From Oceanospirillaceae bacterium (lineage in GTDB: Bacteria; Pseudomonadota; Gammaproteobacteria; Pseudomonadales; Litoribrevibacteraceae): a stretch of 64,000 bases of DNA. The stretch's first letter is position 1; the number at the start of each line of letters is the position of its first letter. The stretch spans positions 62,001-126,000 of the forward strand of contig JADFAD010000007.1 in NCBI GenBank assembly GCA_015665455.1, in the 5' to 3' direction. Position numbers and translations under genes: made by a program. The notes beneath the pieces were generated by a model. That model saw nothing but the letters and a program-made list of their open reading frames with translations, was not told the origin of the DNA and searched no databases. Of this stretch, positions 47,273-62,538 are shown piece after piece.

Positions 47273-48241
47273 TTATTTAGACGAGGTTACTTGTCGTCGA
47301 GCAATGGCCATTTTATATCCGTAATCAATGGCGGTCAGCAGGCTGCCATTGTCGGCGACTCCTTTCCCTGCTAAGTCTAGTGCAGTTCCGTGATCAACGG
47401 AGGTTCTTATGATGGGTAGACCAAGTGTGATGTTGGCGGCGTTACCAAACCCTTTGTACTTTAATACTGGCAGGCCTTGATCGTGATACATGGCAAGAAC
47501 GGCATCGGCATGACTTAAATATTTGTCTGTGAACAAGGTGTCTGCAGGTAAAGGGCCTGTTAACTTGATGCCCGATTGTCTTAGTTTTTCGAGAGTAGGC
47601 TCAATAACTTCGATTTCTTCATGGCCCATATGTCCACTTTCACCTGCATGCGGGTTTAAGCCACATACGTAGATATGAGGCTCATGAATACCAAAGAAAT
47701 TTTGAAGATCACTGTTTGTGATGGTTATTATTTCAGTCAGAAGCTCAGGGGTGATTTGATCAGCAACCTTTCTCAGAGGGAGATGCGTTGTTGCTAATGT
47801 CACCTTTAAGCCTTCTGTTGCGAGCATCATTACAACTTTTTTGCTGTTGGTCAGCTCTTCTAGGAATTCAGTATGGCCAGAAAATTCAATTCCGGCATCA
47901 TTAATGACACTTTTCTGAACAGGGGCTGTGACCATGCCATCGTAGGCACCATCCAAGCAGCCATTGGCCGCATGTTTCAACGTAGATAATACATAGTGGG
48001 CATTATCTACGTTAAGTGTTCCATGGCTTGCGGCCTGTTTAAGAGGGATATGATGAACGTTAAGACGCCCAGAATACCGCTCTAAGTTGAGTTCGGTTTG
48101 CTGTGATAGCCAGTTTTTATCACCAATAAGTGTAATGGTGAGTTCAGGATACTTCTCAAATAATTCTGAAAATGGGAGCTGGGCGGATAACTCAGGGCCA
48201 ATGCCTGCTGGTTCGCCAGTGGTTATTGCAAGGTTAATCAT
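47273..48241 (-). CDS. pdxA: 4-hydroxythreonine-4-phosphate dehydrogenase PdxA
   Basis: NAD-dependent oxidation of 4-phosphohydroxy-threonine in pyridoxal phosphate synthesis. Seen: [15 protein letters not shown], the substrate/metal His region [27 protein letters not shown] and the C-terminal [16 protein letters not shown] with a metal-binding His. 322 residues, standard length. It lies between surA (14 bases) and rsmA in the same operon. Confidence 0.96.
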
Positions 48242-49554: not shown

Positions 49555-52087
49555 AAATTGTCCGTTGGTTAATACCTTCAATCAGTTCAGTCAGTAGCTC
49601 GTCGTTAGAACCTCCAAAGCCTGAAAGACCTTTGAGTTCTATCATCAAGAAAATTCCGCTATCGAACTCATCTCGTTGTTCAGGAATTCCATTTCTAATG
49701 AGTTCTTCGGTATCGCCTGTATAAAAACGACGGTAAACCAGAGAGGTTCTCCAGCAGCAACTGTTGTATTCAAAGCCGTTTAACATGTCAGATGTACGGT
49801 CTAGAGTTAAGTCGTACTCCCAACGGTGAAGCAGTCGCCAAAAAGGTGAGACTTGCCAAACACCAGAAAATTCCAAAAATTCTTCTCGGGCGGCCAAACC
49901 GTCTTTCTTTTCGTTATACCTTAATGTGGCTACGTGTTCTGTGCCTGGTCTCCATAATATCGCATGACTGCTACGTTCAGTTTGATTAAGTCGATCACTC
50001 CATTCAAAATCAAATTGATACGCCCATGCCTCAAACGGGTTGTATCGCACTTCACCAATGTAATTAGACACGTCGTAATCGTTGTCGGTGTTTTTCTTAA
50101 CTTCATCGTGGTTATTGGTTAAATCCACTTTCCTGTCTTTCAGATATAAAATGGTACCGGCTTTAGCAACCAATGATTGATACCCATTTTCATCAATAAA
50201 GCGAGAAGTTAATCCCAAACCAACTTGTGATGTGTCACCGATTCGGTCACCGCCAGAAAATCGATTAGGTTCGAAGATTTGGCTGTATGTTAAGTCCGCT
50301 GCACTGGCATCAAAAATGGGCACATCACCTTGATCTTGGTAGGGAATGTAAGCGTACATAAATTGGGGTTCAAGTGTTTGGGTCATTGAACGACCCAACA
50401 TATCGAACGGTCTTTCTAGAAAAATACCACCCGCTAAGTGTGCGGAAGGTAGAGTGATGTCTTTTTCAGAGTTAAAGCGGTCTTCATTGAAGCCATTGAG
50501 TGTGTATTGCTTGTTATAAACGGTCACTCCGGGTGTTAGATAACCCCACGTTTTGCGTTTATCATAGTTAATGGTTGCTTCAGAGCTTGTTCTAAACGCG
50601 GAACCAACGGTCGTTGCCTGTTGGCCTGCAGTAAGATCTTCATTGGCTGCTGCTCGGTCAAAGTACGTTGCGTTGACTTCAAAAGAGGGTTGCCAAGCAC
50701 CAAATTCGTACCAGCTGCCTGAAAGTAATAAATCGGGCAGTTGTTTGTATTGATCGGATGCTACTTCGTCTTCATCGGTAATTTGGTAACTTCGGAATTG
50801 CCCTGCAAAGGCTAGGTTCTCGCCAGCCCAACTGGTTTTGAATATTTGATCGACAGTGCCATCCACCGATTTAGATAAGATTCCGTCGAAGTCGCCTTTG
50901 TAATCATCATCACTTACTCGGTTGTAATCAACTTCTGTTTTCCAGTCCTCAATTTTTCCTAAGTGATCGAAGTGCAGTGACCATCGATCTTCACCCGTCG
51001 ATTCGCCAGTGATTTCACGTTCATCTTGTTCAGGGTAGTCATCGTCGTCGCCAAGATAACCACCGTTTAATTTATTCATGCTCCAGTCATTGAGGTAGCG
51101 GAATTCGCCTTCCAGCATCGCGCCACGTTTTTCGAAGTACCTAGGGGTTAATGTTGCGTCAAAGTTTGGCGCTAAATTAATGTAGAAAGGTGTGGAAAGG
51201 GAGCTTTCGCCTTGGCTAGCCTCAAAAGAGGGCATTAAGAAACCCGTCTTGCGACGGTCATCGATGGGGAAGTTCATCCAAGGAATGTACATAACAGGAA
51301 CATCTTGGACTTTTAACTTAATATGAGAGGCTTCCCCCCATCCCTCAGTGAAATCAAGTTCAATGTCTTGGGCTTCCATTTTCCAAGCATTGCTGGATGG
51401 TTCACAAAAAGTGATGTAACCACTTTCAAGTTCGACATATTGAGAATCGTCTAAGAAATCAAAATCAATTTTATTCGATTGACCTCTTAAATGCGCATCA
51501 GCGACAGAAAATAATGCGTTATTGATTGTTCCGCTTTCATTTAACAAATCCACATCGGCTTGGTCTCCGAGCATTTTGAGACCTGAATTGTCGATTAACA
51601 CATTTCCAAATAAAGAAGCTTGGCTGGTGGTTTTGTTGTAGCAGGCATAATCCGATGTCGATTGATTTTTTTCTTGGGTGATGACGACGTTGCCGCCAAA
51701 CTGGCTGGTGTTGTCTTTGGTCGAGCCAGTTGCCCTATTTGCTTCAATTGCAATCGGTGCGTCTTTAGATACTTTTTCTTGCAGTCCTCGGCCGATGTAG
51801 AAACCGTCACAACGTGCTGATGCTTTCTTCTTTAGATCGTCAGGCAAATCTTCTTTTTTAACCCATCCAAGCTTATCGGCATAGCTGAGGATGTCAGAGT
51901 AATCCTGTGGAGAGAGATCTTTTTGTGGTGTGCAGAAGGTGTTGTCGTCGGCCTTTATGATGGTGCTGTATGAGAACAAAAGACTCGCTAGGGTTATTAA
52001 TAACCCATTGTTTGATCTATAGTTTCTAGCATGACGAGATGCTGGCTTGGTTGTGCAATGATGTTTTCGGTAAGTTCGAATCTTCAT
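49544..52087 (-). CDS. lptD: LPS assembly outer-membrane protein LptD
   Basis: Outer-membrane beta-barrel that with LptE inserts lipopolysaccharide into the outer leaflet. Seen: a long basic n-region then a hydrophobic signal (about residues 27-46), an N-terminal OstA/jellyroll domain (GGNVVITQEKN), conserved WxxxxxDIELDF-type and PWMNFPIDDRRKTGFLMP blocks, and a ~600-residue strand-rich barrel. Cysteines occur early (TFCTP, ARCDGF) and as a pair late (NSCCWRTSLVYRR), consistent with the interdomain disulfides needed for function. 847 residues, between E. coli (784) and Pseudomonas. First gene of the operon, divergent from amgK. Confidence 0.96.
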   Translation of the reverse strand: MKIRTYRKHHCTTKPASRHARNYRSNNGLLITLASLLFSYSTIIKADDNTFCTPQKDLSPQDYSDILSYADKLGWVKKEDLPDDLKKKASARCDGFYIGRGLQEKVSKDAPIAIEANRATGSTKDNTSQFGGNVVITQEKNQSTSDYACYNKTTSQASLFGNVLIDNSGLKMLGDQADVDLLNESGTINNALFSVADAHLRGQSNKIDFDFLDDSQYVELESGYITFCEPSSNAWKMEAQDIELDFTEGWGEASHIKLKVQDVPVMYIPWMNFPIDDRRKTGFLMPSFEASQGESSLSTPFYINLAPNFDATLTPRYFEKRGAMLEGEFRYLNDWSMNKLNGGYLGDDDDYPEQDEREITGESTGEDRWSLHFDHLGKIEDWKTEVDYNRVSDDDYKGDFDGILSKSVDGTVDQIFKTSWAGENLAFAGQFRSYQITDEDEVASDQYKQLPDLLLSGSWYEFGAWQPSFEVNATYFDRAAANEDLTAGQQATTVGSAFRTSSEATINYDKRKTWGYLTPGVTVYNKQYTLNGFNEDRFNSEKDITLPSAHLAGGIFLERPFDMLGRSMTQTLEPQFMYAYIPYQDQGDVPIFDASAADLTYSQIFEPNRFSGGDRIGDTSQVGLGLTSRFIDENGYQSLVAKAGTILYLKDRKVDLTNNHDEVKKNTDNDYDVSNYIGEVRYNPFEAWAYQFDFEWSDRLNQTERSSHAILWRPGTEHVATLRYNEKKDGLAAREEFLEFSGVWQVSPFWRLLHRWEYDLTLDRTSDMLNGFEYNSCCWRTSLVYRRFYTGDTEELIRNGIPEQRDEFDSGIFLMIELKGLSGFGGSNDELLTELIEGINQRTIYDY

Positions 52088-61597: not shown

Positions 61598-61999
61598 ATG
61601 TCTGTGAAACGACCTTCACGACAAGCAGGATTAAGACATGTAGCTCTTTTTAGTAATAAATTTGAAGAGAGCTTGGTCTTTTATACTGACTTGCTTGGTA
61701 TGGAAATTGAGTGGCAACCTGACTCTGATAATGTTTACTTGAGCTCGGGGAATGACAATTTAGCGCTGCATCGCGCACAAGAGCCATCGGCGATGTCAGG
61801 CCAACGGTTGGATCATATCGGGTTCATTCTTGACGATATGGATGATGTTGATAAGTGGTATGAGTTCTTTATCGAGAATGGAGTGAAAGCCCAAAGTAAG
61901 CCGAGAACTCACCGAGACGGTGCTCGCAGTTTCTATTGTTTAGATCCTGACGGTGTTACCGTTCAAATGATATATCACCCGCCTATCTCAAAAAACTAG
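61598..61999 (+). CDS. VOC superfamily (glyoxalase/dioxygenase-like) protein
   Basis: Single-domain vicinal-oxygen-chelate protein of 133 residues with two beta-alpha-beta-beta-beta units. Candidate metal ligands are His in LRHVALFSNK, His in LDHIGFILDD and Glu/Asp near the end of FYCLDPDGVTVQMIYH. The family includes glyoxalase I, fosfomycin resistance enzymes and extradiol dioxygenases; the sequence does not decide which. It is co-transcribed with the OsmC gene (one-base gap, GAGG inside the OsmC end), suggesting a joint role in detoxification or thiol chemistry. Confidence 0.85.
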   Translation: MSVKRPSRQAGLRHVALFSNKFEESLVFYTDLLGMEIEWQPDSDNVYLSSGNDNLALHRAQEPSAMSGQRLDHIGFILDDMDDVDKWYEFFIENGVKAQSKPRTHRDGARSFYCLDPDGVTVQMIYHPPISKN

Positions 62000-62017: not shown

Positions 62018-62069
62018 CTGATATATTTCAGTCATTTTGATAACATAGTTGATATATCAACTATGTTAT
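62018..62069. promoter_or_regulatory. Perfect 30-bp palindrome with a related upstream half-site, before the DUF4442 gene
   Basis: 62040-62069 is an uninterrupted 30-bp palindrome with half-site ATAACATAGTTGATA. It ends one base before the GAGG Shine-Dalgarno (62071-62074). At 62018-62031 CTGATATATTTCAG is an imperfect palindrome sharing the core TGATATAT; the two centres are 30 bp apart. This looks like a repressor operator pair, or a hairpin masking the ribosome binding site. Confidence 0.6.
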
Positions 62070-62079
62070 TGAGGTAAGC

Positions 62080-62538
62080 ATGTTCCAAACCTTGGCTAAA
62101 AAACCAGAGTGGTTTCGACGATTTGTAAATATCTGGCCGCCGTTTATGGGGGCTGGAATTCATTTGGAGGAAGTGGCGTCAGATTTCACGTATGCAACGG
62201 TTGCTATGAAGCTGAAGCTGACGAACAAAAACTACGTTGGTGTTCACTTTGGTGGTTCTTTGTATTCCATGGCGGATCCATTTTTTATGTTGTTGATTAT
62301 GAATCGGCTAGGTAAGGATTATATCGTTTGGGATAAGTCAGCAGAGATTGATTTTAAGAAACCGGGTAAAGGTATCGTAAGGGCTCGTTTTGAAGCTACT
62401 GATCATATGTTGGATGATATTCGCCAAAAGACAGCTGCAGGAGAGAAATACCTACCCGTGTATTCTGTTGATATCGTTGATGAAGAGGGCGATGTGGTCG
62501 CGACAGTCAAGAAAACCTTGTATATAAAGAAGAAATAA
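62080..62538 (+). CDS. DUF4442 hotdog-fold protein
   Basis: Thioesterase-like hotdog protein of 152 residues. Seen: NIWPPFMGAGIHLEEV, MKLKLTNKNYVGVHFGGSLY with the central-helix block YSMADPFFMLLIMNRLG, and WDKSAEIDFKKPGKG, the typical DUF4442 layout. Members are thought to act on acyl-CoA or related thioesters, without proven substrates. It starts 80 bases after the VOC gene, with a palindromic site directly at its ribosome binding site, and ends at a strong terminator, so it probably has its own control. Confidence 0.85.
   Translation: MFQTLAKKPEWFRRFVNIWPPFMGAGIHLEEVASDFTYATVAMKLKLTNKNYVGVHFGGSLYSMADPFFMLLIMNRLGKDYIVWDKSAEIDFKKPGKGIVRARFEATDHMLDDIRQKTAAGEKYLPVYSVDIVDEEGDVVATVKKTLYIKKK

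Follow-up and report, generated by a model that had tools for sequence, protein, structure and literature searches.

What does a perfect palindrome of 30 bp do directly in front of a ribosome binding site? The question arose in the 64,000-nucleotide stretch of DNA analyzed here (the window), in which an earlier note had pointed to such a sequence upstream of a DUF4442 gene. The note offered 2 explanations: a dimeric repressor that binds the palindrome together with a second, related one nearby, or an RNA hairpin that hides the start region. Our analysis suggests that the palindrome very probably serves as the operator for a dimeric regulator whose regulon is small and conserved. A regulator site is the most likely reading because a shorter core of the palindrome precedes the same 6 genes in 2 related bacteria.

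The palindrome is perfect, unusually long, and present once

The sequence ATAACATAGTTGATATATCAACTATGTTAT is identical to its own reverse complement across all 30 bases. As described in the earlier note, it ends 1 base before the Shine-Dalgarno-like GAGG, which is followed after 5 bases by the ATG of the DUF4442 gene (Table 1). Matches of the encoded protein to hotdog families of NCBIfam were weak and below the cut-off.

Palindromes rich in A and T are commoner than others, which would favor chance as an explanation; a chance palindrome or a recent duplication without function is nevertheless very improbable. The analytic expectation for a perfect 30-bp palindrome is 7e-5 per 64 kb, or 0.005 per genome, and the longest arm in 100 first-order Markov sequences of the same length as the window was 12, versus 15 here. 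By both controls, the dyad symmetry exceeds chance, and the length is as unusual as had been claimed. The runner-up among the perfect palindromes of the window has 16 bp (GGGTTATTAATAACCC, 51991-52006). Elsewhere in the window, positions 47979-48013 hold a 12-bp inverted repeat, AACGTAGATAAT...ATTATCTACGTT, with a loop of 11 bases.

The full palindrome occurs once in its own genome (G000) when up to 3 mismatches are allowed. The same search with its 14-bp center returned 410 places, versus 171 for the backward control, and is uninformative because the center is too short.

Table 1. Features of the locus and matched core sites in the source genome (G000) and the comparison genome (G001).
Feature	Position, or distance of site center from start	Strand	Basis and remarks
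Perfect 30-bp palindrome (proposed operator)	62040..62069	no strand	Symmetry; kept in G001; single copy
18-bp core TAGTTGATATATCAACTA common to other sites	62046..62063	no strand	Alignment with other sites
Imperfect dyad CTGATATATTTCAG	62018..62031	no strand	Not kept in G001; probably outside the proposed operator
Possible -35 CTGATA	62018..62023	+	Putative, 4/6; TTAACA at the same spacing in G001
Possible extended -10 TGA + TAACAT, overlapping the left arm	62038..62046	+	Putative, 4/6; TGA + TAATAT in G001
Shine-Dalgarno-like GAGG	62071..62074	+	Read from the sequence
DUF4442 gene (hotdog-fold, thioesterase-like), 152 aa, proposed target	62080..62538	+	Pfam PF14539, E=1e-22
Pair: DUF4442 (gene behind the palindrome)	25 bp from start codon		75% identity
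Pair: MoxR-like ATPase, divergent pyridoxal-phosphate enzyme	37 bp (G000)		93% and 79% identity; Pfam
Pair: fadB-like gene, divergent gene without family	~310 bp		95% and 69% identity
Pair: lysR gene	66-69 bp		66% identity
Pair: tetR, divergent nitroreductase	105-184 bp (tetR, counted from the first start in frame), 55-83 bp (nitroreductase)		76% and 75% identity
Pair: second DUF4442, divergent lysR	68 bp		84% and 89% identity; Pfam

The palindrome is kept in a second genus

The family is represented by 2 genomes, G000 and a genome of another genus (G001), so that conservation rests on one comparison. In G001, the palindrome is found at the matching position before the matching DUF4442 gene, as GTCATTTTGATAATATAGTTGATATATCAATTATATTTAGAGG. 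The upstream neighbors differ, with a glyoxalase-type gene in G000 and a response-regulator/kinase gene in G001, so the palindrome has been kept despite a diverged upstream region, which argues against chance. Compared with G000, one pair of the arms is changed on both sides (C-G to T-A), one has become G-T (G-U in RNA), and the 2 outermost pairs are lost. The earlier note had taken loss of the palindrome from a related genome that keeps the gene, combined with a lack of other genomic copies, as a sign of chance or recent duplication; G001 has the opposite arrangement.

More distant homologues lend some support to chance. Upstream of 109 further DUF4442 homologues, including the paralogue in the own genome, the palindrome was lost or never present, and TTGATATATCAA occurred in 0/109, the best being 5 mismatches from the core. 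The set behind these counts (111 rows, each with the 200 bp ahead of the match and 30 more) includes some remote matches, and the match often begins after the real start codon.

A shorter core precedes the same genes in both genomes

The core was written as the 18-mer TAGTTGAYATRTCAACTA, with the sites at DUF4442 genes and at tetR as templates. When 3 mismatches or fewer were accepted, this pattern had 16 places in G000 and 11 in G001, versus 6 in each genome for the backward control. The exact core TTGAYATRTCAA occurs at 10 places in G000 and 5 in G001, and its backward control at none in either genome.

The flanking frames of all 16 and 11 places, and of the 6 and 6 control places, were compared by pairwise BLASTP. 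In 6 pairs of places the flanking genes matched, with 65-95% identity over the target genes (Table 1); the 6 x 6 comparison of control places yielded no such pair. Matching was pairwise and not genome-wide reciprocal, and genome searches agree for DUF4442 and tetR. Assuming 3500-4300 genes, ~0.1 matched pairs are expected by chance. Four of the 6 pairs had no part in writing the pattern, and counting these only, the probability of at least 4 is ~2e-6 to 4e-6 under the same assumed gene numbers. Matched sites in this number, against none in the backward control, are hard to reconcile with a chance palindrome.

Outside any open reading frame of at least 80 aa lie 10/16 places in G000 and 6/11 in G001 (control: 0/6 and 2/6); for 2 more in G001, the only covering frame is that of the target, extended upstream. 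Since 6/16 places in G000 do lie inside genes, as do at least 3/10 of those with the exact core, single core matches are not all operators.

Across the 12 sites of the 6 pairs, once aligned, half-site spacing is constant, with TTGATA and TATCAA abutting (0 bp), although the 2 sites of the second DUF4442 gene have no good right half. On each side, TTGA and the A adjacent to the axis carry the most information, along with a T 9 positions out and an A 12 positions out. At the second DUF4442|lysR locus (L191, L194), the weak core lies at the same distance, 68 bp, in both genomes.

Two further pairs, linked through LysR paralogues of low identity (29% and 22%), were left out of the 6. Some gene names were weighed as well: a porin-looking gene (by eye) at one G001 site and the long gene opposite fadB had no Pfam match, and an RND-type name for the gene behind lysR, a partial frame, was dropped for the same reason.

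Among 194 genomes of the order, matches to the core with at most 1 mismatch were confined to 5: the 2 genomes of the family (2 and 3 places), and G046, G086, and G152 with one place each. The contexts in G046 and G086, read by eye, were unrelated genes.

The site fits a DNA operator better than an RNA hairpin

A putative promoter overlaps the left arm of the palindrome. It would consist of CTGATA-17-TAACAT, with TG before the -10 and 8/12 matches, and its G001 counterpart, TTAACA-17-TAATAT, also carries TG before the -10. With 8/12 it stays below the threshold of the promoter scan, and the scan did not report it. Transcription from it would start near the axis of the palindrome.

We propose a homodimeric helix-turn-helix protein as the binder of the core TAG-TTGAY-AT-RTCAA-CTA. 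The bound protein would most likely act as a repressor of the DUF4442 gene, since its site extends over the probable end of the promoter and over the leader, up to 1 base before the Shine-Dalgarno. Weaker cores at the second DUF4442 gene, the MoxR-like ATPase gene, the fadB-like beta-oxidation gene, lysR, and tetR|nitroreductase would be bound by this protein as well. The arms may be longer at the DUF4442 gene because the site is stronger there or because the promoter overlaps it. The position of the fadB site, ~310 bp upstream, is unlike simple promoter blocking.

The repressor of the earlier note had been pictured on 2 sites. The idea of a dimeric repressor is largely supported, both by the other copies of the core and by conservation in the relative. 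The second element, CTGATATATTTCAG, is indeed present; its reverse complement is CTGAAATATATCAG, however, which makes it an imperfect dyad, and comparison of the 2 upstream regions showed that it is missing from the matching place in G001. Action through paired sites is not supported for these 2 reasons. A further copy of the decamer TGATATATCA lies at 61968-61977, inside the final part of the glyoxalase-type gene upstream.

The hairpin, the note's other explanation, would form beside the Shine-Dalgarno in the mRNA and could there limit or time translation of the DUF4442 gene or make the message more stable at its 5' end. None of 200 shuffles folded as well as the 111-nt leader (z -4.17), the hairpin alone reaches -15.0 kcal/mol in G000, and the arms of the 2 sequences available show one double change (C-G to T-A) and one G-U. 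The fold, however, is no independent evidence, because any perfect palindrome in DNA necessarily yields RNA that folds. In G001, where the outer 2 pairs are lost, the hairpin alone weakens to -7.6 kcal/mol. The long arms are confined to the DUF4442 gene, the other targets sharing the 18-bp core only, and the folded leaders of the moxR-like gene (both genomes), the second DUF4442 gene (both), and lysR (G000) contain no such hairpin. Core sites also stand between divergent genes and as far as ~310 bp away from the gene, and if the proposed promoter is right, the right arm alone would be transcribed. A function as an RNA hairpin is improbable on these grounds; the core without long arms at other targets and the weaker G001 hairpin favor the DNA operator.

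A HapR-type protein is a lead for the regulator

No regulator gene is adjacent to the palindrome itself, as the earlier note had remarked and as a chance origin would allow. Candidates are encoded at other loci that carry copies of the core: tetR and 2 lysR genes lie beside core sites in both genomes, a MarR-like gene lies near a weak core site in G000, and a frame that looks lexA-like by eye lies close to a site in G001.

The TetR protein has HapR as its best solved match (E=8e-38). It scored 132 and 140 bits against the HapR equivalog model NCBIfam NF040929, below the cut-off of 350. From these scores, it is a HapR/LuxR-type relative rather than an equivalog. Its recognition helix reads SVPTVFNYF, versus SVATVFNYF in HapR, and the proline is shared by the distant homologue at L208.

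We tentatively regard this protein as the leading candidate regulator. The core between tetR and the nitroreductase gene is perfect in G001 and matched in G000 at 3 mismatches. The protein is 76-79% identical between the 2 core-bearing genomes, and at most 45% identical to its matches in 7 other genomes of the order. HapR-type homologues were found in 9/194 genomes of the order (E<=1e-10) and 3/369 of the class (E<=1e-30), the own genome included in both counts. Near those outside the family no core was found, at up to 5 mismatches in the 7 order genomes, except for a 4-mismatch place ~2 kb downstream in L158.

It is nonetheless more likely than not that the operator belongs to another regulator, be it a LysR beside the sites, the MarR-like protein, or one encoded at a distance, with tetR|nitroreductase merely a target. 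The LuxR-type consensus is TTGATA/TATCAA, and the half-sites at the core lie 4 bp closer than in the LuxR/HapR pattern. Two of the 3 distant, class-level HapR-type homologues (L207, L208) have 11/12 matches to TTGATA-N4-TATCAA upstream, and the third 8/12. In G000, a LuxR-type match of 10/12 lies between the core and tetR, the best in G001 being 9/12. Genes for LysR proteins flank 2/6 pairs. Finally, the operator of TroR, a DtxR-type protein of Treponema, carries TTTTGATATATCAAAA directly before the Shine-Dalgarno (PMC2628430), and other families can therefore use this core. As the half-site spacing and the dyads of the distant homologues argue against it, the TetR protein is a lead and not a result.

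Dyads of the LuxR type upstream of HapR-type tetR genes were CTGATAGTTCTATCAA, and TTGATACATTAATCAA and TTGATATCAATGTCAA (L207/G312, L208/G283). Those of L207 and L208 lie ~90-270 bp before the gene, in genomes far from this family, which suggests that these genes may be autoregulated with Vibrio-type spacing. Another conserved dyad, AAACTCATACTATTGTATAAGTTT and AAACTAATACTATTGTATAAGTTT, lies ~100-130 bp before HapR-type genes in 2 genomes of another family (L161, L162).

A more speculative and rather unlikely reading is the following: a HapR/LuxR-type TetR protein outside Vibrio may have shifted from TTGATA-N4-TATCAA to the abutting TTGATATATCAA, and may in this family control, besides its own gene, a new regulon made up of the thioesterase-like DUF4442 genes, fadB, the MoxR-like ATPase gene, the nitroreductase gene, and lysR, with the 30-bp palindrome as its strongest site. 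Binding by the HapR-type protein would mean that a regulator class of the quorum-sensing type had changed its half-site spacing.

Relation to known regulatory systems

The uncharacterized DUF4442 family gains a regulatory context, with 2 of its genes and a fadB-like gene sharing one motif, and an unnamed regulon becomes directly testable. Judged from sequence comparison, the palindrome would be a conserved operator, ordinary in kind, of a small and apparently undescribed regulon. In the open-licence literature, searched with 4 letter variants and TTGATATATCAA, we found the exact core letters for one regulator, TroR, and no report of the motif in a gammaproteobacterium.

Fatty-acid metabolism is a theme shared with the PsrA, FadR, and FadP regulons, as the proposed targets include a fadB-like gene and 2 thioesterase-like DUF4442 genes. 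The operators of PsrA, FadR, and FadP have other half-sites. PsrA and FadP are TetR-type fatty-acid regulators of Proteobacteria (PMC5343134). The TroR operator, that of a metal repressor, resembles the site at the DUF4442 gene in holding the TTGATATATCAA core within an 18-bp dyad (PMC2628430). It differs in its flanks (TTT/AAA versus TAG/CTA here), in its target, metal transport, and in its host, a spirochaete.

LuxR, HapR, SmcR, and OpaR, the TetR-type quorum-sensing masters of Vibrio, use a dyad of the same TTGATA-type half-site with A/T flanks. A V. cholerae HapR ChIP-seq site starts tagttgata, the half-site of the palindrome (PMC10328515). The LuxR operator has 21 bp, with critical G5, A6, A8, T15, and A17 and ~4 bp between half-sites (PMC2628434). 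The core sites share with these operators the TTGATA half-site with its A/T flank, and one of them lies beside a gene for a HapR-class protein; they differ in that TTGATA and TATCAA, separated by ~4 bp in the LuxR/HapR-type operators of 21-22 bp, directly adjoin each other here.
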